DNA of 64,000 nt from Burkholderia pyrrocinia (GTDB taxonomy: Bacteria; Pseudomonadota; Gammaproteobacteria; Burkholderiales; Burkholderiaceae): NCBI RefSeq assembly GCF_022809715.1, contig NZ_CP094460.1:992001-1056000 (forward strand), in the 5' to 3' direction. The position numbers and the translations under genes were made by a program. Below are positions 6,623-20,763 of the stretch, piece by piece. Below the pieces are notes generated by a model. It had not been told where the DNA came from. It made no database searches and saw nothing but the letters and a program-made list of their open reading frames with translations. The first letter of the stretch is position 1, and each line of letters opens with the position of its first letter.

Positions 6623-7054
6623 TCACTGAGTCGCCCTGCAGTATCGCTCCAGGCGCTTCGCGACTTCGTCGATCACCTTGACGGGGGCGACTTCCAGCTG
6701 CAAATCATGCGTTGTCAGCACCCTGGCGAAAAGATGGAATGCGTCGCCATCGAAATGGAAATGCCCTTGGCGGCCGGAGGAAAACGCGTGGTTTGCGATC
6801 TTTTCCAGGTCCTTGTACGAAGCGTCCTCGACATCCCCGTACCCGTATTCGCACAGGATGCCCGTGGCGATCACGGTCCTCATCAGGACCTGAAGCGCGA
6901 CAAGCGACCCCACACCGGCATGCAGCGCTTCGAGCTGAAGGTGATACTCCAGTGACAAGGCATCGCGTATCGGCCTCGCCAAGGGCAGCAGTTCCGTTTT
7001 CGCCTCACGTTGCGTGCGGCTGGACTGACTGAGACGATGAGCCCATTTGTTCAC
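6623..7054 (-). CDS. Unknown 143-residue protein at the end of the tldD operon
   Basis: I do not recognise a family. The protein is mostly helical by eye, has no signal peptide or membrane segment, and is rich in His and charged residues (for example GRQGHFHFDGDAFHLFARVL). It starts 40 bp after the tldD stop on the same strand, so it is probably the last gene of the receptor-to-tldD operon. Some related Burkholderia proteins may be annotated as Fis-family regulators, but I see no clear helix-turn-helix here and do not adopt that name. Confidence 0.7.
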   Translation of the reverse strand: MNKWAHRLSQSSRTQREAKTELLPLARPIRDALSLEYHLQLEALHAGVGSLVALQVLMRTVIATGILCEYGYGDVEDASYKDLEKIANHAFSSGRQGHFHFDGDAFHLFARVLTTHDLQLEVAPVKVIDEVAKRLERYCRATQ

Positions 7055-7094
7055 GTTCTATTCCACCGGCAATGCGCCGCCTCGACGGCCATGA

Positions 7095-8579
7095 CTACGC
7101 GGTGCCTCCGACGGTCATTTCATCCACCCTCACGGTCGGTTGGCCCACGCCCACCGGGATCGACTGCCCCGCCTTGCTGCACGTCGCCCTGCCGGGATCG
7201 CAGGCAAGATCGTTGCCGACCAGGCTGATGTTCCGTATGGTGTCCGGGCCGTGGCCCGTGATCGTCGCGCCCTTGACCGGCTCGGTAATCCTGCCGTTTT
7301 CGATCAGGTAGGCCTCGGATGCCTCGAAAACGAACTGACCGCTCGTGATGTCGACCTGGCCGCCCTCGAGGCCCGACACGTAGATACCGTTGCGCACCGA
7401 CTCGATGATTTCCTGCGGCTCGTGGTCCCCGTTCAGCATGAACGTGTTCGTCATGCGCGGCATGGGCGGCGAGGCGTAACCCTCGCGGCGGCCGTTTCCG
7501 GTCGGCTCCATTCCCATCAACCTCGCGCTCAGCGCATCCTGCATGTACGCGCGCAGCACGCCGTTCTCGATCAAGGTCGTGCGCCGCGTCGCACACCCTT
7601 CGTCGTCGATATTCAAGGAACCGCGGCCCCCCTGGAGCGTTCCGTCGTCGACGATGGTCACATTCCCGGATGCCACCTTTTCGCCGAGGCGTCCCGCGAA
7701 GGCGGACGTCCCGCGGCGCACGCCATCGGCTTCCAGTCCATGGCCGACCGCTTCGTGCAACAAGACGCCATTCCAGCCCGGGCCGACCACCACCGTCATT
7801 TTTCCGGCCGGCGCCGGCCGCGCCTGCAGCTTCGTGAGGGCGGCCGTCACACGTTCCCGCACGAATGTGCGAAGTTCGTCGTCATCCCACGTCTGGATGC
7901 CATAGCGCCCGCCGATCCCCCCGCTAGCGCCCTCCACGCGCGCGCCGGACCTGACGCGCACGTTGATCCACAAGGACAGTTGCGGACGCACATCGCCGCA
8001 ACTCAGGCCGTCGCATCGCGCGATCCAGATCGTTTCGTGCACGGCGCTCAGCACGGCATGCACTTCGATCACGCGCGGGTCGGCGGCCCGGGCGATCTCG
8101 TCGAGCGTCTTCAGAAGCGCGATCTTGTCCGCTCCATCCATCGTCCGCAGTGGATGAGCCGGGTCGTAGAACGATCGTGCCGATGCGGCCGGCCTGCGCT
8201 GCATCGCTGCCGAGCCGTCACGCGAAATGCCGCTTCCGGTTTCGCACAGCCGCGACGCAACATGCCGGAGCGCCATCGCGTCGATGCGTTGCGAACTCGC
8301 CAGCGTCGCCTGTTCTCCCTTCAACACGCGCAGTCCGAAGCCGCTATCGCAACGATACGAACTCGCGCGCACGGCCCCCCCTTCCAGCGACCATGATTCC
8401 GCGGTCGTTTCCTTGAGAAAGATATCCGCAAAATCCCATCGCTGGCCGAGCGCGACGCCCATCGCGGAAAAAAGCGCCGTCTCGTCGACGCCATGCCGGT
8501 CCAGCAGCGCGTGCCGCGCCAGCGTGCGGATCTCCTCGCGGGCAGGCCGTAATACCTGCCGCTGCTTCATGTCACTCAT
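7095..8579 (-). CDS. tldD: TldD-family metalloprotease subunit
   Basis: A 494-residue member of the TldD/PmbA peptidase family U62. The zinc site is intact: HEAVGHGLE at about residues 275-283 supplies the two His and the catalytic Glu, and the C-terminal CSKAGQSIPVGVGQP matches the family's metal-binding Cys region. In E. coli TldD pairs with TldE to form a protease that degrades unstructured peptides and removes the microcin B17 leader. The partner lies immediately upstream with a 3-bp gap. Burkholderia normally carries housekeeping tldD and pmbA at separate loci, so this linked pair is probably a specialised second copy tied to the adjacent transport genes (inference). Length fits the family (about 480). 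Confidence 0.9.
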   Translation of the reverse strand: MSDMKQRQVLRPAREEIRTLARHALLDRHGVDETALFSAMGVALGQRWDFADIFLKETTAESWSLEGGAVRASSYRCDSGFGLRVLKGEQATLASSQRIDAMALRHVASRLCETGSGISRDGSAAMQRRPAASARSFYDPAHPLRTMDGADKIALLKTLDEIARAADPRVIEVHAVLSAVHETIWIARCDGLSCGDVRPQLSLWINVRVRSGARVEGASGGIGGRYGIQTWDDDELRTFVRERVTAALTKLQARPAPAGKMTVVVGPGWNGVLLHEAVGHGLEADGVRRGTSAFAGRLGEKVASGNVTIVDDGTLQGGRGSLNIDDEGCATRRTTLIENGVLRAYMQDALSARLMGMEPTGNGRREGYASPPMPRMTNTFMLNGDHEPQEIIESVRNGIYVSGLEGGQVDITSGQFVFEASEAYLIENGRITEPVKGATITGHGPDTIRNISLVGNDLACDPGRATCSKAGQSIPVGVGQPTVRVDEMTVGGTA

Positions 8580-8582
8580 GTT

Positions 8583-9941
8583 TCAAGCTCCCCCGATCTT
8601 CATTGCATCGATCAGCCACGATCCGGAGGTCGCCCATCCCCTCGTCAACGCGTCGCTGCCGATCGCCTGTAGTCCGCCGAACATCCGGCGGAGATTCGAC
8701 GCTATCGTGATACCGCTCACCGGGAACCGGATCTCGCCGTCTTCCACCCAGAACCCCTTGGCGCCGCGGGAGAAATCCCCCGTCAAGCGGTTCACGCCGC
8801 CGCCAACCATCTCCGTGACCAGAAGTCCGCGATGCAGCTTCCTCAGCATCGCGGCGAAGTCGTCGCCGGGCCGGGTCCGTGTACTGCGCATCTCGAGGTT
8901 GTGGGGCCCATAGCCGTTGCCGGTGGGCGTCAGGTTCAAGCGGCGCGCCGCATAAAGCCCGAGAAACAGCCCGCGCAGGCGGCCGTCCTCCACCACCTTG
9001 CGGCGCCCGCCCGGAATGCCGTCTCTGTCGAAGCAGCGGCTGGCCATCCCGCGCTTGACGAACGGATCCTCGTCAAGCTGGACATGCGGCGGAAACAAGG
9101 ACGAATCGATGTCATCCTTCAAGAACGATCCGCTCCGGTAGAGCGCATCCCCCGATGCCGAGGACACCAGTTCGGCCAGCAGCCCCAGCGACGCCGACGG
9201 CTCGAACAGAACCGGGCATTGCTGCGTGGGGACTTGCGTCGCGCCGAGCGCGTCGATGGCTCGCCTGGCGGCCAGCGCCCCGACCTCCTCCGGTTTCGCG
9301 AGATCGTCGAATGCGCGACTTGCATGGCCCCAGAAACCGATCTGCTTTTCGCCGGCGCCGAACGCGACGGGCGCACATGCGATCGAATGGACGGACCACG
9401 GCGCTGTCGCATGGAACCCCGCCGACGTGGCCAGCAACGACGTGCCCGACATCGTTCTCACCGTTACGCCCTTCGACGCCTTGATCGACGGGTCATGTGC
9501 GAGCGCCGCATCCTCGGCGCGTTGCGCATGGGCACCGATGTCGTCGAGCGACCAATTCAGCGGGTGATGGAGATCGAGATCGGGAAAGTCCCTGGCCAAC
9601 TGGCTCGAATCGGCGAATCCGGCCGCGGGATCGGGCTCGGTTGCGGCGGTGCTCTCGATCGCCGCGCGAACGATCTTTCTCAGCCCGTCGTCCGACAGGT
9701 CCGACGATTTCGCGAAAGCACGTTTTCCGTCGCGAAACACCGTCACCGTCATCTCCAGGGTGCCGCAAAAACTGCGTTCCGTCTGCACCCGGTTCGTCAC
9801 GGTCACGGCGCTCGATTCGGCGGCCTCGATCTCCACGCGCGTCCCCTCCGCGCCCGCCTGCCGCGCGAACGCGATCACTCGCTCCGCCGAACTCGCCAGC
9901 TCAGCAGCGACGGTTTGCAACTGCGTACTGCTCGATTGCAT
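8583..9941 (-). CDS. TldE/PmbA-family partner of TldD
   Basis: A 452-residue PmbA/TldE homologue. It carries the family C-terminal block (RGAKGFWVEDGEIRFPVSGI) and the STRTRPGDDF region, but lacks the HExxxH metal motif, as expected for the non-catalytic subunit that forms the cage with TldD. It starts 42 bp after the thioredoxin-fusion stop and ends 3 bp before tldD, so the two are almost certainly co-translated. Its place in a TonB/ABC-transporter operon is the unusual point. Confidence 0.88.
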   Translation of the reverse strand: MQSSSTQLQTVAAELASSAERVIAFARQAGAEGTRVEIEAAESSAVTVTNRVQTERSFCGTLEMTVTVFRDGKRAFAKSSDLSDDGLRKIVRAAIESTAATEPDPAAGFADSSQLARDFPDLDLHHPLNWSLDDIGAHAQRAEDAALAHDPSIKASKGVTVRTMSGTSLLATSAGFHATAPWSVHSIACAPVAFGAGEKQIGFWGHASRAFDDLAKPEEVGALAARRAIDALGATQVPTQQCPVLFEPSASLGLLAELVSSASGDALYRSGSFLKDDIDSSLFPPHVQLDEDPFVKRGMASRCFDRDGIPGGRRKVVEDGRLRGLFLGLYAARRLNLTPTGNGYGPHNLEMRSTRTRPGDDFAAMLRKLHRGLLVTEMVGGGVNRLTGDFSRGAKGFWVEDGEIRFPVSGITIASNLRRMFGGLQAIGSDALTRGWATSGSWLIDAMKIGGA

Positions 9942-9983
9942 CAGCCTGCTCCTCCGCCATGCGGCATCGTGTCGTTGAATGCC

Positions 9984-11207
9984 TCAGGCGGTCTGCCCGG
10001 TGAGCTGAATCAGCATGTCGCCGATCGCGCTGCCCCGCTCGGCCGCGGCGAGATGGCCGTCCTCGTAATAAGACAGGAAACGCCCCACGAGTTGAGGATC
10101 GACCTCCGCCACACGCTCCATCAGCGCGCTGCCCCTCGGCGGCTCGACGCCGGCGTCGATTGCCTGCTTGAAGACCCCTTCCGCCAATTGATTCAAGCGC
10201 GCATCGTCCTGCGCGCCCCAGTTGCATTTGACCTGCAGCCATTTCCGCATGGAGCCGCAAAGTGAAAAGACGAACTCCTTCAACATGTCCGGATTCCGGG
10301 CCAACGAGGACGAAGCGACCTCCAGCACCTCGGCGGCCACGGCAGCACTCCCGTCGCCGAGTTCGGCCGCCGCGTCCCTGGATGCCTGCCTGACGTCCGC
10401 CCAGTTCGCGTCCGCCACCGGGGAGCCGTCCAATTCCGCCGCGTGCAGCGAAACCAGCTCGTCACGAATCGCCAGCAACCTCGATTCCCCCTCCAGCGTG
10501 TCCGAGACGATCCGGCTCGACAGGATCGACATCAGCAGCCGGCCGGGCAGCGTCGAGAGGTTCGCGCCGACCGGTACGCTTTCCAGCCAGTCCGCCACGA
10601 ACAGCGCCGCCTTGAAATGGGTGCCTCGATAGCTCGACAGGACCGTCACCGCGTCGACCACATCGGTCGGCATGCCCAACACGGACGCGCACTCGTCCGG
10701 ATCACGCGAGTCGGCAACGAATTCCAGTGCGCCGCTGATCTTTTCCGGCCACATGGGGGTGCCCAGCGCGGCTTGCTTGTGCTCCAGATAATCGAGCAAC
10801 CGTGCGATGCGAGCCGCTTTCACCTGCGGATCGCCGCCGAACGCGCGAAGCGTCACTTCGGGCTTGGCCAGCTGCGTGACGGTTCCCAGGTGCGCATCGA
10901 GATAACTCGCCAACTGCGTGGCCGACCGCGGTCCCACGATGCGGCCCGCCTCATGGCCGCCGTTCATGAGCACCAGGGCGGGAATACCGCGCACACCGAA
11001 ACGCTCGCGCAAGGACGGATGCTCGTCGACGTTGACCTTGACGATGTCGACCTTGCCGTCGAAGTTCCGCGCCACCTTCTCGAGCGTCGGCGCCAGCGCC
11101 TTGCACGGCCCGCACCATTCGGCCCAGAAGTCGACCAGCACCGGACGGCTGTTCATCATCACGTCGGCCTCGAAGCTCGCGGCGGTCACACTTTTCAAAT
11201 CGCTCAT
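9984..11207 (-). CDS. Thioredoxin domain fused to a long C-terminal domain of unknown function
   Basis: A 407-residue protein. Residues 1-110 are a canonical thioredoxin: VLVDFWAEWCGPCK gives the redox pair Cys32/Cys35, and the cis-proline motif GVRGIPALVLM follows. There is no signal peptide, so it is cytoplasmic. Residues 115-407 look all-helical and match nothing I know; they do not read as the TPR tail of CnoX/YbbN, which in E. coli also lacks the CxxC. I chose the ATG at 11207 because AGGAA precedes it and the thioredoxin fold starts immediately. An upstream in-frame ATG at 11282 adds unrelated residues. It lies between the ABC transporter and tldE, which suggests it reduces or holds an imported substrate before proteolysis (inference). 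Confidence 0.85.
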   Translation of the reverse strand: MSDLKSVTAASFEADVMMNSRPVLVDFWAEWCGPCKALAPTLEKVARNFDGKVDIVKVNVDEHPSLRERFGVRGIPALVLMNGGHEAGRIVGPRSATQLASYLDAHLGTVTQLAKPEVTLRAFGGDPQVKAARIARLLDYLEHKQAALGTPMWPEKISGALEFVADSRDPDECASVLGMPTDVVDAVTVLSSYRGTHFKAALFVADWLESVPVGANLSTLPGRLLMSILSSRIVSDTLEGESRLLAIRDELVSLHAAELDGSPVADANWADVRQASRDAAAELGDGSAAVAAEVLEVASSSLARNPDMLKEFVFSLCGSMRKWLQVKCNWGAQDDARLNQLAEGVFKQAIDAGVEPPRGSALMERVAEVDPQLVGRFLSYYEDGHLAAAERGSAIGDMLIQLTGQTA

Positions 11208-11286
11208 TTCACGTTCCTGTCCATAAGTTCGGTTTCGTCGGACCTTGCCCCCGGTGAGGTGCAAGCGTCTTGACGGGATCACGGTG

Positions 11287-13068
11287 TCATGCCGGGCAAG
11301 CAGACGAAGCCGTGCCGGTCAGGCCGGCCGCGACCGCGGATGCCCATTCCGGTGAAAAGTCGAGGGTCTGCTGATGAAAGGCCAGCAACTCCTTTCGATG
11401 CGCGACGCTGAGGATCGTGGCCTGAGGTAGCCGGTCGATCAGCAGTTGGTAGAGCGTTCGCTCGCTCTCGGTGTCGAGCGCCGACGTGCATTCATCGAGA
11501 AATATCGTGGTCGGGCTGGCCAGCAACACGCGTGCGAACGCCACCCGCTGCTGCTCTCCGCCGGAAAGCCGGTCGCTCCAGCGATCGGCGTCCAGCATCG
11601 ATGCAACGTGCGCATCGAGGCCGCATGCGCGCAGGACGTCCGCGCATTGGCCGTCGGTGTACGTCGATTCCTCGTGCGGATACGCGATCGCCGCCTTCAA
11701 CGTGCCGACGGGAATGTAGCTGCGCTGCGGAACGAACATCGTTCCTTCGGCACCGCAGGTGACGATGCCCTCGCCGTAGGGCCAGAGGCCCGCGAGCGCT
11801 CTGAGCAGCGTGCTTTTCCCGCTTCCGGAGCGCCCGCGGATCAGACAGCGCGAACCGGGTGCGAGCGAGAAGTCGGGCACGCGAGCAATCTCCGCGCCGG
11901 CTGCGTCGCGCAGAACCAACCCGTGGGCGCCTACGGCTCCGCGCTCGCCGGCGGTCAACACGACGTTTCCCCGCGAATCCAGCGCGTTCACGTAGAGAAA
12001 TTCCCGAAGCCGGTTCGCTTCGGCGCGCCACGCGGTGAATCCCAGATAAGCCTGGGGAAAGAATGCCAGGGAACTGGACACGGAACTGAATGCTGCGTTC
12101 GATTGCATCAGCCCGCCCAGCGTCAGCCCCCCCGTTATCAGTTGCGGCAATACCAGCAACGTGGGCACCACGGGCACCACCGAGCTGAATTGCCCGACGA
12201 TGTTGGTAAACAGCGAGACCCGCGTGTTGACCCAAAGCAGCGCATAAAGATTCGAAACGACCTGGCGAAAAGCCCCGTTCAATCGCTTGCCTTCCGCGCC
12301 GCTTCCATCGAAGAAGGCGATCTGCTCGGCGAATTCGCGCACCCGCACCATCAGCACGCGGAAGTCGCCCTCCACGCGGTTCTGCTTGGCATTGAGGGTG
12401 ATCAAGCGTCGGCCGAGCAGGTGCGTGGCCCAGAAAAACAGGCCTTGATAGAGAAAGACGGCATAGACCAGGTATCCGTGGATGCTGTACGTGTGTCCAC
12501 CGATATCGAGATCCAGGGAATGGCCGATCGACCACAGGATCACGCTGAAGCTCACGATGCTCACCGGCACCTGAAGCACGCCCATCGACAGCTGCAAGGT
12601 GTCCTTGACGAACTGCTTCGCATCCTCCGCGATACGCTGATCGATGTTCTCGAGCGCGCGGTCGCGCTCGATGCGGTAGTAGGTATGGCGGGCCAGCCAC
12701 TGATCGGCCAGCCAGGTCGTCAGCCATCGCCGCCAGCGAATCTCGACGATCGATTGCATCACCACCGTGGACACCGTCAGCGCGGCGGCGGCCATGGACA
12801 CCAGCAGGAACTGCAACAGCAGGTTCGGCAGCGCCTGAAACCTCCCGGATCCCACGGCGTCGTAGAACGTGCCGGTCCATCGGTTGAGCCACACGGCGAT
12901 ATAGGTGTGGCTCCAGCCCGCCCCAAGCACGTAGGCGAGCATCAATGCCGACAGCATGCCCTCCCTGGTGGTCCAGTACGGCGTGATCAACTTCCAGACG
13001 GAAGGAAAGTGACGCCTGGCATCCCGATCCTCGGCCCGGTCCGTCGGGAATGCCCGATTCCCGATCAT
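11287..13068 (-). CDS. SbmA/YddA-like ABC transporter, permease fused to ATPase
   Basis: A 593-residue fused transporter of the SbmA/BacA-like ABC family. The N-terminal two-thirds (to about residue 340) contains six membrane segments with family-typical stretches (TYIAVWLNRWTGTFYDA near residue 55, RWRRWLTTWLADQWL, YYRIERDRALENIDQRIAED). The ATPase domain shows Walker A IRGRSGSGKSTLL near residue 420, the signature LSGGEQQRVAFARVL and Walker B TTIFLDECTSALD. SbmA and BacA move peptides, including microcin B17, across the inner membrane; fused versions (YddA, Rv1819c) also handle cobalamin and hydrophilic solutes. The ATG overlaps the exbD stop (ATGA), so it is translationally coupled to the energy module. 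Direction and substrate are inferred. Confidence 0.88.
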   Translation of the reverse strand: MIGNRAFPTDRAEDRDARRHFPSVWKLITPYWTTREGMLSALMLAYVLGAGWSHTYIAVWLNRWTGTFYDAVGSGRFQALPNLLLQFLLVSMAAAALTVSTVVMQSIVEIRWRRWLTTWLADQWLARHTYYRIERDRALENIDQRIAEDAKQFVKDTLQLSMGVLQVPVSIVSFSVILWSIGHSLDLDIGGHTYSIHGYLVYAVFLYQGLFFWATHLLGRRLITLNAKQNRVEGDFRVLMVRVREFAEQIAFFDGSGAEGKRLNGAFRQVVSNLYALLWVNTRVSLFTNIVGQFSSVVPVVPTLLVLPQLITGGLTLGGLMQSNAAFSSVSSSLAFFPQAYLGFTAWRAEANRLREFLYVNALDSRGNVVLTAGERGAVGAHGLVLRDAAGAEIARVPDFSLAPGSRCLIRGRSGSGKSTLLRALAGLWPYGEGIVTCGAEGTMFVPQRSYIPVGTLKAAIAYPHEESTYTDGQCADVLRACGLDAHVASMLDADRWSDRLSGGEQQRVAFARVLLASPTTIFLDECTSALDTESERTLYQLLIDRLPQATILSVAHRKELLAFHQQTLDFSPEWASAVAAGLTGTASSACPA

Positions 13069-13487
13069 TGCTGGCCCTTGGTCGGTTGCATGACGAAATT
13101 GATCTTGTTCAGCCCGCCGCCCTGCAGCGCCGCGAGTATCGTGGCGACCTTCCCGTATTCGACGTGCTCGTCGGCATTGATGTTGACGGCCGGAGGATCG
13201 CCCTGCTTCGAAGCCGCCTCGACACGCAGCTTCAGCGCCGCATCGTCGACCACGTCCTTGTTCCACAGCACGGTCTTGTCAGCCGTGATCGACAGGTCGA
13301 TGTCCTGCGTTTTCGACTGGGCGGGCTGTGCCGCGGCCTTGGGCAGATCGACCTTCACCGCCTTGTTGATGACAGGCAGCGTCACGATGAAAATGATCAG
13401 CAGAACCAACATGACGTCGATCAGCGGCGTCATGTTGATGTCGTTCATCACGCCTTCGTCGTTGTTGCCATCCATGAGAATCGACAC
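13065..13487 (-). CDS. exbD: ExbD-type TonB energy-transducing protein
   Basis: A 140-residue biopolymer transport protein. It has a short cytoplasmic start, one membrane helix (MTPLIDVMLVLLIIFIVTLP) that includes the conserved proton-pathway Asp, and a periplasmic domain ending in NKINFVMQPTKG. It works with ExbB and TonB to pass proton-motive force to the outer-membrane receptor. It starts 13 bp after exbB and overlaps the ABC transporter start. Confidence 0.92.
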   Translation of the reverse strand: MSILMDGNNDEGVMNDINMTPLIDVMLVLLIIFIVTLPVINKAVKVDLPKAAAQPAQSKTQDIDLSITADKTVLWNKDVVDDAALKLRVEAASKQGDPPAVNINADEHVEYGKVATILAALQGGGLNKINFVMQPTKGQQ

Positions 13488-13500
13488 GATTGGCTCCCGA

Positions 13501-14235
13501 TCAGGCGGCGGCGTTGACGCGCTTGCTCGTCGCCGGCGCCGCGGGCACCGGGCGAACGTCGCAGCGGGCCTTGGCGCCTGTCACGAAGTACACGTGCAAC
13601 TCGTGCACGAACCGGTTCAGGCGATGGCTCACCCGCTTGTTGCCTCGATTGACGTAGTTGAATCCGAGCACGGCGGGGATCGCCACGAACAGGCCGATCG
13701 CCGTCATGATCAGCGACTCGCCGACCGGGCCCGCGACATGATCGAGGCTGGCCTGTCCCGACACGCCGATGGCCATCAGCGCGTGATAGATGCCCCACAC
13801 GGTCCCGAACAGGCCGACGAACGGCGCGGTACTGCCGATCGACCCGAGGATGGCCAGGCCGTTCTGCAGGCGGGCAACCTCGTCGTCGAAGGCGTTGCGC
13901 AGGCCGCGCGCCACCCATTCGCTGCTGCTGAGGCTTCCTTGCAGCGACGCGTCGCCACCGGCCTGCTGGTCGTTCGCCTCGCGGCCGGCAAGCGCCACGG
14001 CGCGATACGGATTGTCGGTGCCGTCGCCCAGGGCCTCGATGCCGTCATCGAGCGACGGCGTGGACCAGAAGCGCGTCTGCGCACGTTTTCCCATGGTCTC
14101 GAGGCGTCGATTCGCCAAGCCCTTGGTCACGATGACGAACCACGACACGATCGACATGCCGAGAAGAAAGACGAAGATGAACCGGGTGATGAAGTCGCCC
14201 TGCTGCCAGACGTTGGCGATGCCGTACTGTTCCAT
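13501..14235 (-). CDS. exbB: ExbB-type TonB proton-channel protein
   Basis: A 244-residue MotA/TolQ/ExbB protein. Membrane segments lie near residues 17-37, 125-150 and 165-190, with the conserved GTVWGIYHAL and IAVPAVLGFNY-like block (here VAIPAVLGFNYVNRGNK). I chose the ATG at 14235 because GGAG precedes it with good spacing; the in-frame ATG at 14265 overlaps the tonB end. It forms the proton channel with ExbD. Confidence 0.92.
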   Translation of the reverse strand: MEQYGIANVWQQGDFITRFIFVFLLGMSIVSWFVIVTKGLANRRLETMGKRAQTRFWSTPSLDDGIEALGDGTDNPYRAVALAGREANDQQAGGDASLQGSLSSSEWVARGLRNAFDDEVARLQNGLAILGSIGSTAPFVGLFGTVWGIYHALMAIGVSGQASLDHVAGPVGESLIMTAIGLFVAIPAVLGFNYVNRGNKRVSHRLNRFVHELHVYFVTGAKARCDVRPVPAAPATSKRVNAAA

Positions 14236-14257
14236 TTTTTGCTCCGTAGATTCCAGG

Positions 14258-15013
14258 TCAATCATTCAGGTTGAAGGCGATCGGCTGCTCGGCCTCTACG
14301 GCACGGGCAATACCGGCGGTCGTGTAGGGCTGGCAATGGCCGGCTTCGATCGCCGCCAGCGCGGCCGCATCCAGCAGCGGGTAGCCGCTGCTTTGCGCAA
14401 CCCGCGCCGTCTTCACCGCACCGTCCACGCCGATGTTCAGCCTCACCACCACCGTGCCTTGCTGGTCCAGCCGCCGGGCCTTCGGCGGATAGTCCGGCCG
14501 CGGGATACGGCAACCGAGCTGCTTGAGCTCCGCGCTGCTAATCTGCTTCGGGCTATCGAGCAGTTGGGGACCCGGCGCGGGTGCAGGCGGTGTCGCAGCG
14601 GAGGGCGCGACCGCGCTGGGCACCGGTACCGGCGGCGCCGGCGGCGCCGGCTCGACCGGTTTGACGGGCTCGGTCTTGGCTGGCGCGATGGTCCGGGCAG
14701 CAGGAGCCTCCGAGGAAAGCAAGGGTGCCGTCTTCCGCACCACCGGCTTTTCGACGGGCTTGGGTTCCGGCTTCCGCTGAGGCTCCTGCTTGGGCTTCGG
14801 TTCCGGCCGCGCGACGGGCTCGGGTGTCGGCGCGGCAACGAGCCTGACCTGAACCGACGCACCGGAGGCCCGGTCGGCCTCCAGCCTGATCAGGTCCACG
14901 CTGCGATGAACGATCAGATACAGCCCCAGTGCGTGCGCCAGCACGACCGCGCCCCCGATCGCCGCGCGCCGCCATCGCGCCCGCGAATGAGTGATGCGCT
15001 CAGGATTCGACAT
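14258..15013 (-). CDS. tonB: TonB energy-transducing protein
   Basis: A 251-residue TonB. An N-terminal anchor (AAIGGAVVLAHALGLYLIV, about residues 18-36) is followed by a long Pro-Glu/Pro-Lys spacer (about residues 60-155). The C-terminal domain contains the YPPKARRLDQQGTVVVRLNI motif typical of TonB family C-termini. The ATG at 15013 has GGAG upstream. An alternative ATG at 15055 overlaps the receptor stop and would add 14 residues. A private TonB next to its receptor suggests a dedicated transport system. Confidence 0.92.
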   Translation of the reverse strand: MSNPERITHSRARWRRAAIGGAVVLAHALGLYLIVHRSVDLIRLEADRASGASVQVRLVAAPTPEPVARPEPKPKQEPQRKPEPKPVEKPVVRKTAPLLSSEAPAARTIAPAKTEPVKPVEPAPPAPPVPVPSAVAPSAATPPAPAPGPQLLDSPKQISSAELKQLGCRIPRPDYPPKARRLDQQGTVVVRLNIGVDGAVKTARVAQSSGYPLLDAAALAAIEAGHCQPYTTAGIARAVEAEQPIAFNLND

Positions 15014-15044
15014 GCCGCCGCTCCACGGCCGAGTCTCGAGGGTG

Positions 15045-17435
15045 TCAGAAATCATAGGTGCCGGTGAGCATGATGGTCCGCTCCGGTCCCATCGGGATCA
15101 GGCTAGCGGTCGTGCTGCTGTAGTAGAGCTTGCGATTGAATACGTTCTTGACCGAAAGATTCAGGCCGTAACCCTTCTTCCGATAGAACACGCCGAGGTC
15201 CGTCTCCACCTGGCTGGGGATGCGGTACGCCGAGCCCGAACCGATGTACTGCCCGCTCGCGAAGAACAGCCCCGCGCCGACACCGAAACCCTGGAGCTTC
15301 TCTGAGCGGAAGTTGTAGGTCGCCCACAGGCTGGCGCTGTTCTTGGGCAGGTTCACCGCCAGCTTGCTGTTCGGCGGCTGCACGAAGTCGTTGTACGTGT
15401 AGCTGCCCACCACGTTGACACCGGGCAGCGGCTGCCCGGTAATCTCCGCTTCGAATCCGCGGCTGACGGCGCCGCCGGCAGGAAGATAGAAGCCGCGATG
15501 GGCCGGGTCGGCAACGTTGTAATTGCTGAACGAGGTGCGGTAAGCCGAGGTTGTGATGGCCAGCTTGTCGTCCAGCAGGTTGAACTTCATGCCCACTTCG
15601 ACCTGCTGGCTGGTTTGCGGGGGGAGCACACCGCCGCCGAATTTAAGCGCCGTGCCCGGCTGAAAGCCACGGTTGTAGCTGGCGTAGGCGGCAACCTCGG
15701 ACGTCAGTTCGTAGAGCAGGCCGAGGCTCGGGCTATACGCATTCTGATGGTTTCCCGGTGGTGGGTTACCGGCGTAGGTCGCATGTGTCAGATAGGTATC
15801 CCGGCGCACGGACGCGAGTGCATGGAAATTCTTGTAGGAGAACTGATCTTGTAGATACAAGCCGGTTTGGGTGAAGTAGGTAGTCCCATTCGGCATCAGG
15901 TTTCCCGTGTCGGAAGACGGAAGCGTAAATGAGCCGAAGACATTCGGAATGGAAATGAATTTCGATGTCGTGGTGTCAGACTGATGCTGGCTGTAGCGAA
16001 GAACGTCCCAGCCAGCAATCACCGTATTTTTCGCAGCGCCGACATTGAACTTGGCGCGCAGGTAGTTCTGGAAGCTCCAACTGTAGAAATCCGAAAGCGA
16101 ATCGAAATTGTGGAACAACACGCCGTTGGTCGCCGAGAGCGGCGTGGCCGTAGTCCAGGCTTGCTGCGTTTGTTGGGTCCGCGTATAGGAACCCTTGCTC
16201 ACGAAGGTCAGCGCCGAGCCGAGCTTTTGTTCGAGATGAATGAAAATATTGTCCGTTTGCGCGCCGAAATGGTCGGACGGCGTGCCAAGCGGCTTGTCGA
16301 TATAGTTTCGATAGATATCGCCGGCAGCATGGCCGAGCGTGAACTGGGGAACCGGCTCGCGGTAGACCGTGCGCTCATAGCCGACCGTCACATCCGTGGT
16401 CGAGTCCTTCCATTGCACAGTCGGCGCAAAGTAGAAATTTCTCTTGCCGTCATATCCCATCGAATTCTGGCCGACCCGTTCACCCGAGATGATGAAGCGA
16501 TACCGGAGTTTCTTGTCGGCGGTGATCGCGCCCGTGCTGTCCAGCGCGATCTGGGTGTCGCCGTACGATCCGTAGCCCACCTGGATTTCATGAAACGGAT
16601 CGGCCTGCGGCGTCTTCTTGACGAGATTGATGACGCCTCCCGGCGGACTGTTGCCATTCACGATGGCCGAGGGTCCCTTGACCACTTCCACGCTCGAGAT
16701 GGCGATCGTCGGCGTAACGTTAGGGGCCGTCCCGACAGTCGCCAATCCATCCGACGTGACGTTTTGCGCTACAAACCCGCGAATCGTGTAACTCGGCACG
16801 CCCAGCGGCCCCGGCCGCGTGACGACACCGGAAGCATTCCTCAGCACATCGGAGAGCGACTGAGCACCCTGGCTCTGGATCACCGCGGCATTGATGACGC
16901 TGACCGATTTCGGCGTCTCGCTCAGCGGCACATCCGAGCGCGCATAGGTGGAGGACGATTCCGCGACGAAGCCGGTACCGCCTGAATCCCGGCTGGCCGC
17001 CACGCTGATGAGGGGCAAGGTGGTGTCTACCTGCGCCGTGGTCGCCGCGGCTGCGGCAGCGGCCGGCGCCGACGAAACCCCCTTGGCATCCGCCTTGACG
17101 TGAGCCAGCGTGTAACCGCCGTTCGCCGTCGGAACCAGGTCGAGGCCCGTGCCCTGCAAGGCCTTGCGAATCGCGGCCTCGGCCGAATACGTGCCGTCCA
17201 CCGGCGTCGATTTGAGCGACTGCACCAATGACGCGTCATAGCTCAACGGAAGCTGCGCGACCCGGGCGATCTCCACCAACGTGCGATCCAGCGGACCGCT
17301 CGGCAGATGATAGGTGTGTTGTTCCGCCTGCTGCGCATACGCCGCGGACACCATGAAAGTCTGGGCAACCGCCATTGCGATCGCCATTGCCGCAACGTTG
17401 CGGGCCATACCCTTGCCGTCGAACTTGATCCCCAC
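15045..17435 (-). CDS. TonB-dependent receptor with N-terminal STN signalling domain (FecA-type)
   Basis: A receptor of about 796 residues. The GTG start at 17435 has AGGGAU upstream; an ATG at 17408 is possible and still leaves a full signal peptide ending AYA/QQ. Next comes an STN (secretin/TonB short N-terminal) domain (HTYHLPSGPLDRTLVEIARV... to about residue 100), which interacts with FecR-type anti-sigma factors. An Ala-rich linker and a TonB-box-like TLPLISVAAS precede the plug (PLSETPKSVSVI, VEVVKGPSAIVNG, GGVINLVKK) and a 22-strand barrel ending in LTGTYDF. Sequence style is that of siderophore-class receptors, but no siderophore genes are nearby and the downstream operon suggests a peptide-like ligand (inference). 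Confidence 0.9.
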   Translation of the reverse strand: MGIKFDGKGMARNVAAMAIAMAVAQTFMVSAAYAQQAEQHTYHLPSGPLDRTLVEIARVAQLPLSYDASLVQSLKSTPVDGTYSAEAAIRKALQGTGLDLVPTANGGYTLAHVKADAKGVSSAPAAAAAAATTAQVDTTLPLISVAASRDSGGTGFVAESSSTYARSDVPLSETPKSVSVINAAVIQSQGAQSLSDVLRNASGVVTRPGPLGVPSYTIRGFVAQNVTSDGLATVGTAPNVTPTIAISSVEVVKGPSAIVNGNSPPGGVINLVKKTPQADPFHEIQVGYGSYGDTQIALDSTGAITADKKLRYRFIISGERVGQNSMGYDGKRNFYFAPTVQWKDSTTDVTVGYERTVYREPVPQFTLGHAAGDIYRNYIDKPLGTPSDHFGAQTDNIFIHLEQKLGSALTFVSKGSYTRTQQTQQAWTTATPLSATNGVLFHNFDSLSDFYSWSFQNYLRAKFNVGAAKNTVIAGWDVLRYSQHQSDTTTSKFISIPNVFGSFTLPSSDTGNLMPNGTTYFTQTGLYLQDQFSYKNFHALASVRRDTYLTHATYAGNPPPGNHQNAYSPSLGLLYELTSEVAAYASYNRGFQPGTALKFGGGVLPPQTSQQVEVGMKFNLLDDKLAITTSAYRTSFSNYNVADPAHRGFYLPAGGAVSRGFEAEITGQPLPGVNVVGSYTYNDFVQPPNSKLAVNLPKNSASLWATYNFRSEKLQGFGVGAGLFFASGQYIGSGSAYRIPSQVETDLGVFYRKKGYGLNLSVKNVFNRKLYYSSTTASLIPMGPERTIMLTGTYDF

Positions 17436-17739
17436 GATGCACCCATCCCTAGTCGGTTGTATTTCGGCAAAACGCCTGTCTTGTCCCACACGATCGAGAA
17501 GTCGAGAAGCAGCGGTCAACCGCAACGGCATGCCTTCCCCCTTCACTCCCGGCTTCGCTCGAGGCCGCCGGCCCCGGCAGGCTTGCCGGCTCCTCATCCA
17601 CATGAAAAAGTCTAGCGATCCTGCCCGGAATACTTTTTTGAAAGAATTCGTCCTTCGCGCCATTTCCGGTTTTTTATTCCCACCGACCGCGCCGTCTTTG
17701 AAAATTCAATCCAGCAGGCGGAATCCGCAGACAAGAAAA
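17436..17739. promoter_or_regulatory. Leader and candidate ECF promoter of the receptor operon
   Basis: About 300 bp between the Lrp gene and the receptor. On the minus strand GGAAAT (17667-17662) is followed after about 16 bp by TCTTTC, which resembles the FecI-type -35/-10 pattern; this is weak evidence. An inverted repeat of GCCGGC halves (around 17568-17591) could fold in the mRNA leader. I see no Fur-box-like dyad. No coding frame is convincing. Confidence 0.3.
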
Positions 17740-18204
17740 TCAGCAAACGTAATCGAGGGGCAACCTCGTCGTATGCTTGATGGTCTCCATCGAGAAACTC
17801 GAACTCACATCGAAAATTTCCAGCTCGCTGATCAAGCGCTTGTACACGCCGTCATACCCGGCGATGTGCGGAACGACCACCTTCAGCAGGTAGTCGATGT
17901 GACCGCTCATGCGGTACACCTCGATCACCTCGGGGATGTCGGCGACCACGTCGCAGAAGCGTTTGAGCCAGGCGGCCGTATGCTGCGCAGTCCTGATTTC
18001 GACGAGCACGGTCACGCCGACATTGAGCTTGTCGGCGTCGAGCAGAGCGACTCGGCGGGCGATGACGCCGTCCTGCTCGAGCTTCTGTATGCGGCGCCAG
18101 CAAGGCGTCGTCGACAAATGCACGCGATCGGCGATTTCCGCCACTGAAAGCGTGCTGTCCTCTTGCAGGACTGTCAGGATGGCCTTGTCGATATGGTCGA
18201 TCAC
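17740..18204 (-). CDS. Lrp/AsnC-family transcriptional regulator
   Basis: A 154-residue Lrp-type regulator. The helix-turn-helix is in LSVAEIADRVHLSTTPCWRRIQ (residues 19-40), and the C-terminal RAM effector domain contains VYRMSGHIDYLLKVVV. The family binds amino acids or related small molecules. It lies between fecR and the receptor on the same strand, 132 bp after the fecR stop. That is unusual because FecI/FecR normally adjoin the receptor. It could add amino-acid or peptide-status control to the system (inference). Confidence 0.9.
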   Translation of the reverse strand: MIDHIDKAILTVLQEDSTLSVAEIADRVHLSTTPCWRRIQKLEQDGVIARRVALLDADKLNVGVTVLVEIRTAQHTAAWLKRFCDVVADIPEVIEVYRMSGHIDYLLKVVVPHIAGYDGVYKRLISELEIFDVSSSFSMETIKHTTRLPLDYVC

Positions 18205-18335
18205 AGTTCCCCCCTTCGGGACAAGGTAAGCGTCGCAGGCATTCGGACGCCTTCATTCACCTTGTGCAACGAAGCGGGAAAAGTGACACCGGGAAAGAAA
18301 AAAATTTTTGCGCCCCGGCTGAACGGGGCGCGGCG

Positions 18336-19310
18336 TCAAGCCTCTGAGGCGACGGCCAGAACCTTGCCATACACGGCAAGGGAAAGTCCCAGGCCGTTGG
18401 CGAGCTGGCGCAGCGCCGCCTCGGCGTCGTCGAGTGGGAACACGCCGCTGACCCGGCGAGCGAGCGCGGCCCGCGGAAACCGGATATAGCCGCCGTAGTA
18501 GCGGCCCAGCGTCTCGAGGATGTCGGGCAGCGGGCGATCCAGGACGACGAGCGTGCCGCGGCTCCAGGCGAAGATGTCGGCGGCCGTCTCGGGCATGCGG
18601 GCGATGCGCCCCGGCGATAGCGACCAGACCGAACCATCGCCGATGCGGACACTGCCGCCGCGCGGCGTCGCAAGGGTAGCATCCCCCCCCTGCACCGCGA
18701 CCACGGTGTGATATCGCAATGTATCGACGCTCAGGCGAGCGTGGCTCGTGATTGCCGTCCCGTCCCGCGTCCTCACGGCGAACTGCGAGCGGTTCGTCGT
18801 GGCGGGACTCGTCAGGATCTGGCCGGACGCAAGATAGACGTCGCCGCGTGCGCCGTCCCGTGTCCAATAAACACGCGCCGATGCCCCGAGGACGATCGGT
18901 GTCCCGTCTTTCAGCGCCACGGCCTGCGGCGTCCGATCGCCATTGTGATAGTCGGCGTCGAGCGAATACGCCCGGACCAGTTCTCGCGTCCCGATCGCGG
19001 CCAGCGCCAGCGCCCCCACCCCGGCGCCAGCCTTCAACATGCGGCGCCTCGCACGAGACGGCTCGTTCAGCGCGCTTCGCACCGCCGTGCCGGGCGCGTT
19101 CCGCAGGGAGGCAAACCGCGCCAGCCCTTCCTGGAGCCGTATCCACGCCGCTTCGTGCGCGGGATCGGCGCGGCGCCATGCCTCGAAGCCATCGCGATCC
19201 TGCTGCGTGGCGTCCTCGGCACGCAACCGGACCTCCCACTGAACGGCTTCCTCCGCGCACGCATCGACCGGGCCGGCGCCACGCGGGGCCTTCAACTGAT
19301 CAGAAAGCAT
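18336..19310 (-). CDS. FecR-family anti-sigma/sensor protein
   Basis: A 324-residue FecR homologue. Residues 15-60 form the cytoplasmic DUF4880 anti-sigma segment (EEAVQWEVRLRAEDATQQDR, EAWRRADPAHEAAW). An arginine-rich stretch precedes a single membrane helix near residues 93-110 (KAGAGVGALALAAIG). The periplasmic FecR domain follows (about 120-215), then a C-terminal STN-like domain that contacts the receptor. It overlaps the sigma gene by 19 bp, so the two are translationally coupled. Confidence 0.9.
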   Translation of the reverse strand: MLSDQLKAPRGAGPVDACAEEAVQWEVRLRAEDATQQDRDGFEAWRRADPAHEAAWIRLQEGLARFASLRNAPGTAVRSALNEPSRARRRMLKAGAGVGALALAAIGTRELVRAYSLDADYHNGDRTPQAVALKDGTPIVLGASARVYWTRDGARGDVYLASGQILTSPATTNRSQFAVRTRDGTAITSHARLSVDTLRYHTVVAVQGGDATLATPRGGSVRIGDGSVWSLSPGRIARMPETAADIFAWSRGTLVVLDRPLPDILETLGRYYGGYIRFPRAALARRVSGVFPLDDAEAALRQLANGLGLSLAVYGKVLAVASEA

Positions 19311-19843
19311 CGGGTAAGCGCCTGGGCGATATATTTGCGAACCATGCTTGTCGAGACGCCGAGTCGAGCGGCAATCTCGGAATACGTGAGGCCGTCGATC
19401 TGGCTGTAGATAAAGGCACTTTTCGCTTTCGGAGACAATCCATCGAGCGCCTGATCGATCAGGAACAATGCCTGGGAAATCTCGACGATCGATTCGGCGG
19501 ACGGCGCGAGGGGCTCCTCGACGGTGAGGAGCGCCTCATGATAAGCGCGCTCGAGATCCCGGCGGCGCCACATCTCGAAGGTGAGACGCTGGGCGATGAC
19601 GGTCAGCCACGCTCGAGGCTCGCGAATACCCGGCGGGTCATCGACGCCGGCAAGCGCCTCGAACGACGACGACGCAAGATCCTCGGCATCGGCCGGCGAT
19701 CCGACACGACGCAGCAGCTTCGCCTTCAGCCATCCGTAGCTGGCCCGAAACTCGTTGGCAAGCCAAACCGAGCGGGAATGAGGCGACTCGTCGTCGCTCC
19801 TTTCCAGCTTGTCGAGAGGCTGTGCTGCCGGGCCAGTGCTCAT
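19292..19843 (-). CDS. FecI-type ECF RNA polymerase sigma factor
   Basis: A 183-residue ECF sigma factor. The region 2 core is SYGWLKAKLLRRVGSPADAEDLASSSF, and region 4 is LSPKAKSAFIYSQIDGLTYSEIAARLGVS followed by MVRKYIAQALTRC, all typical of the FecI group. I chose the ATG at 19843; an in-frame ATG at 19894 adds 17 atypical residues. Together with FecR and the STN receptor it forms a complete cell-surface signalling cascade that should switch on the receptor when ligand binds. Confidence 0.9.
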   Translation of the reverse strand: MSTGPAAQPLDKLERSDDESPHSRSVWLANEFRASYGWLKAKLLRRVGSPADAEDLASSSFEALAGVDDPPGIREPRAWLTVIAQRLTFEMWRRRDLERAYHEALLTVEEPLAPSAESIVEISQALFLIDQALDGLSPKAKSAFIYSQIDGLTYSEIAARLGVSTSMVRKYIAQALTRCFLIS

Positions 19844-20199
19844 GTGCCAATTTCCAAAGCGATGGCGCGATGGGCGTGCGCTGCAGGATGCCAATCATCT
19901 GCCCAAATGCAACGTCATGCCCCGCTAGATTGGTGTCGTAGTATGCCATTTCAAAATCGCCGCATACCGGCGCGATACCAATCCAAAACCCGACGTCCGG
20001 GGCGGTCATTCGCGACGCCGGGACGACCAGGACGCCCCGATCACGTCGCGGAGCCGCAGGCCGCCCCGAATCATGCTCGCTCAACTGGCTGCCAGATATC
20101 GCTGCGGCGATTCGCCCCTGATCCGTCGGAACATGACGACGATTGTGGTTGTATGACCTGCCCCATCAATAGCGCCAATGGACTTCTAGCAAAGTCCCT
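19844..20199. other. Upstream region of the sigma gene, no gene seen
   Basis: About 350 bp between the sigma-factor start and the transposase relic. I found no Fur-box-like dyad and no strong sigma-70 promoter by eye, only a weak TTGCAT with a poor -10 on the minus strand. Possible frames here have no recognisable homology. Confidence 0.3.
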
Positions 20200-20763
20200 T
20201 TAAACCAGCTCCTGGAATGCGGCAGGAGCATCCGCTGTTGCCTGATGTTTCGCCGCGAACTCCGATGGCGAGAGGTAATTCAGTGCGCTGTGCGGCCTTT
20301 GCTCGTTGTAGTCTTGACGCCATGCCGCGATGACAGCGCGAGCGTGGGCAAGCGTCGTAGACCAGTGCTCGTTAAGGCATTCATCGCGGAACTTGCCGTT
20401 GAACGATTCGATGTACGCATTCCGCGTCGGCTTGCCGGCCTGAATCAACTTCATGGTGACGCCACTTGCGTAGGCCCACTGGCCGAGCGCGCGGCTCGTG
20501 AATTCGGGCCCCTGGTCTGTTCGCACCGCTTTGGGATCGCCTCGGAAGCGGGCGCCCGTTTGTGATTGGCGTGCGTTCCTTCGCGTTCCACCAGGGCATG
20601 CAGCCGACGGTGGCCGAAGCGGCGACGCTCGTGCGCCAGCTCCACCAGACGCGCCGTCAACGCTTCATTCTCATGGTCCGGCTTCGCACTCGTAGTGCAA
20701 CATGCTGCGAGAAAGCCCGACAAGCCGGCAGGCGCGGCGCTCCGATAGCACTGGACGTCTCAT
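20200..20763 (-). pseudogene. Degenerate IS3-family transposase (OrfB), internal deletion and frameshifts
   Basis: Three minus-strand fragments in different frames add up to an IS3-type OrfB. The N-terminal piece has SERRACRLVGLSRSMLHYE, then NEALTARLVELAHERRRFGHRRLHALVERE, then a jump into the C-terminal catalytic piece RTDQGPEFTSRALGQWAY and YIESFNGKFRDECLNEHW, which holds the second Asp and the Glu of the DDE triad. The middle of the catalytic domain, including the first Asp, is missing. The C-terminal fragment alone (20200-20526) is an open frame. No OrfA and no terminal inverted repeats were recognised, so it is a dead relic. Confidence 0.85.

Follow-up and report, generated by a model that had tools for sequence, protein, structure and literature searches.

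The window analysed here is a stretch of 64,000 nucleotides from Burkholderia pyrrocinia (contig NZ_CP094460.1, positions 992,001 to 1,056,000). Between its positions 6623 and 19843, Pfam and NCBIfam scans delineate a cassette of 12 minus-strand genes in the order fecI-fecR-lrp-receptor-tonB-exbB-exbD-ABC-thioredoxin/CTD-tldE-tldD-orf143, in which ABC is an ATP-binding cassette transporter and CTD the C-terminal domain fused to a thioredoxin. A preliminary description of the locus had named a sigma factor, FecR, a receptor, TonB/ExbB/ExbD, an ABC protein, a thioredoxin and TldE/TldD, and every one of these parts is present. Its operon-like spacing was also right: there is an ATGA overlap at 13065–13068, a 3-bp gap between tldE and tldD, and a gap of about 31 bp between the receptor gene and tonB. 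It did not mention lrp, which lies inside the run, and it passed over orf143, within its span, without comment. The features are the following (aa, amino acids):

19939..19953, minus strand: conserved element TGAAATGGCATACTA upstream of fecI (upstream-region alignment)
19292..19843, minus strand: FecI-type extracytoplasmic function (ECF) sigma factor, 183 aa (Sigma70_r2/r4)
18336..19310, minus strand: FecR anti-sigma factor/signal transducer, 324 aa (PF04773 and PF16220)
18262..18289, minus strand: conserved element GTGTCACTTTTC-N6-CGTTGCACAA upstream of lrp (upstream-region alignment)
17740..18204, minus strand: Lrp/AsnC-type regulator, 154 aa (PF01037, HTH_AsnC)
15045..17408, minus strand: TonB-dependent receptor with STN signalling domain, 787 aa (PF00593, PF07715, PF07660); start chosen by eye to give a signal peptide, the open frame extending to 17663
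14258..15013, minus strand: TonB, 251 aa (PF03544)
13501..14235, minus strand: ExbB/TolQ-type proton channel, 244 aa (PF01618)
13065..13487, minus strand: ExbD, 140 aa (PF02472)
11287..13068, minus strand: ABC transporter, SbmA/BacA-type membrane domain fused to an ATPase, 593 aa (PF06472, PF05992, PF00005)
9984..11207, minus strand: fusion of thioredoxin and C-terminal half
10881..11207, minus strand: thioredoxin domain of the fusion, residues 1–109, WCGPC (PF00085 and motif)
9984..10880, minus strand: CTD of the fusion, 298 aa, all-helical (AlphaFold2 model, homologues)
8583..9941, minus strand: TldE, 452 aa (PF01523/19290/19289; no HExxxH)
7095..8579, minus strand: TldD metallopeptidase, 494 aa (NF008006, 521 bits, cut-off 513; HEAVGH)
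6623..7054, minus strand: orf143, last cassette gene, conserved beside tldD in betaproteobacterial loci

Identity of the parts

The preliminary description had listed a thioredoxin fusion among the parts, and the CTD of this fusion turns out to be the hallmark of the system; the same domain family is also encoded by a stand-alone gene in some loci and joined to an S9 peptidase in another. The first half of the fusion is a thioredoxin by its WCGPC active site, its match to PF00085 (105 bits) and its structural model. The CTD matches no Pfam family, and its AlphaFold2 model is all-helical, with a predicted local distance difference test score (pLDDT) of 94.4 and no clear match in the PDB. We regard it as an unnamed, possibly new domain family.

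The ABC protein is above the cut-off for PF05992 (75.6 bits), PF06472 (160.5) and PF00005 (63.6), and its best PDB match is 6tqe (E 1.3e-72), which we take to be mycobacterial Rv1819c/BacA. The earlier label of SbmA-like is correct for the membrane domain, which is of SbmA/BacA type, but the protein has its own ATPase domain and 6tqe as best match, so that it is not SbmA proper. As for the peptidases, TldD carries the HExxxH motif as HEAVGH and TldE lacks it, a pair that fits the TldD/TldE protease, even if TldE scores 331 bits against NF008268, below the cut-off of 438. Two further TldD/E genes lie at two separate places elsewhere on contig 1 of this genome (7.69 Mb, 3 contigs), and the cassette tldE/tldD is therefore a second pair. 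In a tree of 22 TldD sequences, those of the betaproteobacterial cassettes form one clade (100/100), with the gamma and alpha sequences on separate branches. A third, more distant TldD/E-like pair was seen at G078:C1:634907-636960, G044:C2:2087097-2089153 and G253:C1:3075352-3077432.

The ECF sigma factor, FecR and the STN receptor together make up a surface-signalling set of the FecI/FecR/FecA kind, although FecR itself scores 102 bits against NF007296, under the cut-off of 385. Counterparts of the sigma factor in cassette relatives are 52–97% identical, and Lrp is 83–100% identical across the other betaproteobacterial loci aligned, with 72% in G072. The element upstream of lrp has a near-invariant core, GGTGTCACTTTTC-N6-CGTTGCACAA, in all ten aligned loci, and a genome-wide search allowing up to 3 mismatches returns this single match (backwards control, 0); it may be a promoter read by the cassette sigma factor. 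Upstream of fecI, the core AAATGGCATACTA is identical in 9 of 9 aligned regions. The last gene, orf143, occurs once in the genome and matches neither Pfam nor NCBIfam; it adjoins tldD in 12 other betaproteobacterial loci, with 49–97% identity.

A recurring set with an exchangeable peptidase

The CTD was used as the marker for finding relatives. Most of the matches listed for the whole fusion, which matched 243 of 249 genomes of the family, are to the thioredoxin part alone. Among those listed, the matches in G000, G181 (two copies), G078 and G044 extend over the CTD half, that in G052 (contig end) extends over part of it, and that in G072 is a split pair. The CTD alone matched in 9 of the 65 genomes of the genus. 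Protein searches with the CTD returned 22, 23 and 78 proteins. The largest of these sets includes two weak matches to XRE regulators, and its named members belong to Sphingomonas, Novosphingobium, Caulobacter, Sphingobium and Niveispirillum.

From these hits, 43 loci reached via the thioredoxin-CTD protein were fetched with their context and tallied by one script, remnants and weak matches being counted; of the 57 plasmid records that the CTD matched, 52 lie outside the tally, as does the plasmid copy G256:C1. The loci come from alpha-, beta- and gammaproteobacteria and differ in gene order, but they are not independent, as 16 are from one genus. Receptor and SbmA-type ABC gene occur together in 34 of the 43 loci, and a linked TldD, M16, S9 or M3 peptidase in 34 as well; ExbB plus ExbD are found in 33, FecI plus FecR in 30, tldE plus tldD in 29 and an M16 peptidase in 4, two of which lie on plasmids. 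The preliminary description had proposed to look for co-occurrence of the thioredoxin fusion with tldD/tldE and the SbmA-like gene, and the parts that it had named do form one recurring set.

Conserved gene order in related genomes, without which that description would have given up its reading, was found as well. By tblastn of the window genes, the 12-gene order is the same in B. seminalis, G266, G255 (C4), G263, G256 (C3, 1.84 Mb), G078, G044 and a Paraburkholderia caribensis plasmid, and fecI is displaced in G253, G261, a B. cenocepacia plasmid and the second G255 copy (C5). G072 has the set in two blocks about 9 kb apart and without orf143. The full component set is present in 13 other betaproteobacterial loci, 12 of them with orf143. 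In P. caribensis (L062, ~8080–9900), the receptor-tonB gap of about 1.8 kb leaves space for an extra gene, unlike the other aligned loci.

Around the other tldD, tldE and trxA genes of the same genome (3 regions), no other cassette part was detected. Seven arbitrary 20-kb regions of this genome were empty in five cases, gave a Lrp-like match in one, and a Lrp-like plus an ABC-like match in another; since these matches appear at the same threshold, the Lrp and ABC marks are permissive. The clustering of the cassette is not due to chance, given the 13 other betaproteobacterial loci with the full set and the near-empty control regions. Within the genus, at least four PF01523 (TldD/E) domains are present in 9 of 9 genomes with the CTD versus 3 of 56 without it (G257, G260, G274), for which Fisher's test gives p 6.9e-9, a value that is too small because the genomes share ancestry. 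One of these, G274 (C1, C3, C4), has 7 TldD/E domains and no CTD match at E ≤ 1e-8, which may reflect another use of TldD/E pairs.

The peptidase of the cassette is exchangeable between TldD/E, M16, M3 and S9 families. The fusion is present in 16 of 25 genomes of the gammaproteobacterial genus g83, where receptor-ABC is divergent from fecI-fecR-tonB-exbB-exbD-tldE-tldD-thioredoxin/CTD. Thirteen of these 16 loci have tldE/tldD (L130 with interrupted matches), two lack tldE/tldD and have an M16 peptidase gene following that of the ABC protein, and one consists of ABC and thioredoxin-CTD only. One M16 genome, G1042, contains 2 TldD/E C-terminal domains in total, and the three TldD/E genomes searched contain 4 each. 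A Klebsiella plasmid combines sigma factor, TonB/ExbD/ExbB, M16, thioredoxin-CTD, receptor, M16, two ABC genes and FecR; on this plasmid (L102, NZ_CP055068.1), an IS1 element sits between the sigma and tonB genes, and sul1, qacEdelta1 and aadA2 are also carried. Among sphingomonads, Sphingomonas parapaucimobilis shows the order receptor-ABC-tldE-tldD-trxA-CTD-trxB-M3 peptidase-Cds1, Novosphingobium capsulatum tldE-tldD-trxA-CTD-trxB-M3 with the ABC gene cut by the record end, and Sphingomonas sp. NY01 M16-receptor-ABC-trxA-CTD. In G505, from another family of the same order, the CTD is fused to an S9 prolyl oligopeptidase (receptor-ABC-trxA-CTD/S9-Cds1-TonB-ExbB-ExbD). A Cds1-like cysteine desulfhydrase is found in two loci (S. 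parapaucimobilis and G505) and thioredoxin reductase (TrxB) in two sphingomonad loci. By eye, the thioredoxins, TldD and the M16 proteins of Klebsiella and the gammaproteobacteria have no obvious signal peptide, and the NY01 M16 protein may carry one; the TldD/E-thioredoxin part looks cytosolic.

Proposed import and dismantling of cysteine-containing peptides

We think that the cassette is probably a ligand-induced import-and-dismantling system for cysteine-containing peptides. A cysteine- or disulfide-bearing peptide would bind the STN receptor, upon which FecR and FecI would turn on the operon, perhaps via the conserved element before lrp, while Lrp could add an intracellular, amino-acid-type signal; the gene families and their positions point in this direction. 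The dedicated TonB-ExbB-ExbD complex would power the passage across the outer membrane, and the BacA/SbmA-type ABC protein would bring the peptide into the cytoplasm. There, the thioredoxin, which shows no signal peptide by eye, would reduce the disulfides, and the CTD may bind the peptide or the peptidase and hand the opened chain to TldD/TldE for degradation, a task that M16, M3 or S9 peptidases would take over in relatives. In two relatives, the Cds1-like enzyme could then remove sulfur from the freed cysteine; passages of PMC8389258 describe Cds1 of Mycobacterium as converting cysteine into H2S and pyruvate. The likely pay-off is the scavenging of sulfur and amino acids from small cysteine-containing peptides of competitors or hosts, or the disarming of such peptides.

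The preliminary description had suggested uptake and destruction of a disulfide-containing or modified peptide. This reading is now above a guess, because relatives add TrxB, M3, M16 and S9 peptidases and a Cds1-like enzyme, and a cysteine-containing peptide would be the simplest common substrate of the added parts. The metal chelate that it had named as another ligand keeps a smaller chance, the receptor being siderophore-like.

Several observations weigh against import and dismantling of peptides. The closest PDB chains of the receptor are siderophore receptors (enantio-pyochelin, FoxA/CntO, FhuA), and it exceeds the cut-off of TIGR01783. The TldD family is said to include N-deacetylases, and a single origin of the cassette TldDs is neither shown nor rejected (p-AU 0.107). 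Nine of the 43 loci have no receptor plus ABC gene, namely two G256 remnants, the G181 second copy, G272 and G052 (short contigs), G451 and G1025 (weak matches), Novosphingobium (record end) and G1054; nine have no peptidase, with an identical list except that a B. glumae plasmid replaces Novosphingobium, so that eight are shared. That plasmid copy has receptor, ABC and thioredoxin genes but no tldE/tldD. The Cds1-like proteins score 542 and 518 bits against NF052478, under the family's cut-off of 600. None of TrxB, M3 and Cds1 was detected in the TldD/E loci of beta- and gammaproteobacteria, and so the cysteine argument is carried by the two sphingomonad loci and G505. Finally, passages of PMC10960864 report that mycobacterial BacA takes up bleomycin and Bac7, a peptide, but carries cobalamin in both directions, hence the direction of the ABC protein is not given by its family.

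The B. glumae plasmid (L060, NZ_CP130147.1) has the order lrp-receptor-tonB-exbB-exbD-ABC-thioredoxin/CTD near the sulfur genes sfnG/msuE. The CTD matched 57 plasmid records, and in 52 of them its best place has 60–80% identity; the 52 first-ranked matches are all from B. glumae.

A different possibility, which we consider unlikely, is metallophore uptake. The ligand would be a peptidic siderophore or a metallopeptide in complex with ferric iron (or copper), with thioredoxin/CTD assisting metal release and TldD/E recycling or destroying the peptide carrier. Besides the siderophore-type receptor, the FecI/FecR/STN logic is typical of ferric chelates. However, in the 28 upstream regions scanned, from 10 loci, no match to the Fur box exceeds 11 of 19 positions (E. 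coli consensus, no shuffled control), which suggests that these regions have no Fur-like box. Moreover, no siderophore synthesis gene was detected among the 10 other window genes scanned (E ≤ 1e-10; the remaining window genes were not scanned), and companions such as Cds1, TrxB, M3, M16 and S9 suit peptide catabolism better.

Nor do we find it probable that the purpose of import and destruction is protection from one particular disulfide-containing bacteriocin or antimicrobial peptide of a host, and not nutrition. The patchy, partly plasmid-borne and sometimes duplicated distribution would fit such a role, and several plasmid hosts come from rice, cabbage and mango, but toxin import is a costly route to resistance, and the cysteine desulfhydrase and M3 oligopeptidase indicate catabolism. 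Production or maturation of a ribosomal peptide, as for microcin B17, with TldD/E as processing protease, the ABC protein as exporter and the receptor for re-uptake, is very improbable: TldD/E cleaves the microcin B17 leader and activates a Yersinia peptide-cytidine antibiotic according to passages of PMC6795089, and BacA can export (passages of PMC10960864), but no modification enzyme was recognised among the 12 genes, the gaps between them, where a precursor would lie, do not exceed about 330 bp, small open reading frames (ORFs) not having been searched as precursors, and the peptidase is replaced by M16 or S9 in relatives.

Relation to known systems

The nearest published kind is that of the TonB-dependent protease-associated import systems, as presented in passages of PMC6793856. 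Like the cassette, the Fus (FusA-B-C-D) and YddB-PqqL systems cluster the genes of a TonB-dependent receptor, a TonB-like protein, an inner-membrane transporter and a peptidase of their own. The cassette likewise has its dedicated energiser, as TonB plus ExbB plus ExbD, and the M16 peptidases of the four loci belong to the family of FusC/PqqL. By contrast, the window has TldE/TldD and no FusC/PqqL-type M16, and the cassette has a siderophore-type receptor, thioredoxin-CTD and FecI/FecR/Lrp. Among the receptor's 42 PDB matches (E ≤ 1), no chain is named ferredoxin receptor, no direct comparison with FusA being made. PqqL and FusC are periplasmic in the passages of PMC6793856, whereas the TldD/E-thioredoxin part looks cytosolic by eye. 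These passages also place other proteases beside FusA relatives, and a term search of the main text gave no match for TldD, thioredoxin or Burkholderia.

Other known systems share single parts of the cassette. BacA/BclA/SbmA transporters have the same PF05992/PF06472 membrane domains, here with an ATPase, but the cassette copy sits within a TonB receptor-thioredoxin-peptidase set. Sigma factor, FecR and STN receptor are close together as in FecI-FecR-FecA signalling, yet lrp intervenes, the downstream genes are for peptide processing, and the regions scanned gave no Fur-like box. The TldD/TldE protease likewise has both partners with the catalytic motif in TldD alone, whereas the cassette pair is a second, dedicated one and the betaproteobacterial cassette TldDs form a supported clade of their own. 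With lasso-peptide clusters, which contain an isopeptidase, a TonB receptor and FecI/FecR, the shared idea is peptide re-import and cutting; the peptidases differ, and no lasso synthesis gene was recognised among the 12 cassette genes.

We did not find the combination described in the open-licence literature searched, most subscription papers being outside that search. TldD with TonB receptors and thioredoxin, plus SbmA or Sphingomonas, gave no paper there, and the passages returned for TldD, TldE and TonB-dependent together deal with TldD only in relation to microcins or in a mutation list.

TonB systems are mostly regarded as carriers of metal chelates and vitamins, and the Fus system imports a protein that is cleaved in the periplasm. 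If our reading is true, a disulfide-bearing peptide is brought to the cytosol and met by a private thioredoxin and exchangeable peptidases, and cells would have a new means of feeding on, or disarming, cysteine-rich peptides such as bacteriocins and defensins. It would also give a physiological role to duplicated TldD/TldE, and the CTD would be a marker domain usable for finding ligands. More tentatively, and with somewhat less than even confidence, we propose an undescribed class of import machines that depend on TonB and that plasmids and rearrangements have carried across alpha-, beta- and gammaproteobacteria. Their core would be receptor, BacA-type ABC protein, thioredoxin and a new helical adaptor domain that links the reduction of disulfides to the peptidase present in each case (TldD/E, M16, M3 or S9), for taking in cysteine-rich peptides or small proteins, unfolding them reductively and mining them for sulfur and amino acids.

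Some minor observations concern the surroundings of the thioredoxin-CTD genes. A MocR-type (GntR plus aminotransferase) regulator or an aminotransferase lies nearby at L045:14043-15584, L083:5611-7401, L074:12431-13603 and L106:5177-6553, and in G044, and an M24 peptidase in G072, G505 and G044. Near the thioredoxin-CTD pair of a Pandoraea-type genome, there is an ORF of 2893 residues with a DUF4781 domain (L045:2264-10945). In the window itself, a minus-strand ORF at 20200–20526, just upstream of the cassette, reads by eye like the end of an IS3-type transposase, which suggests past mobility.

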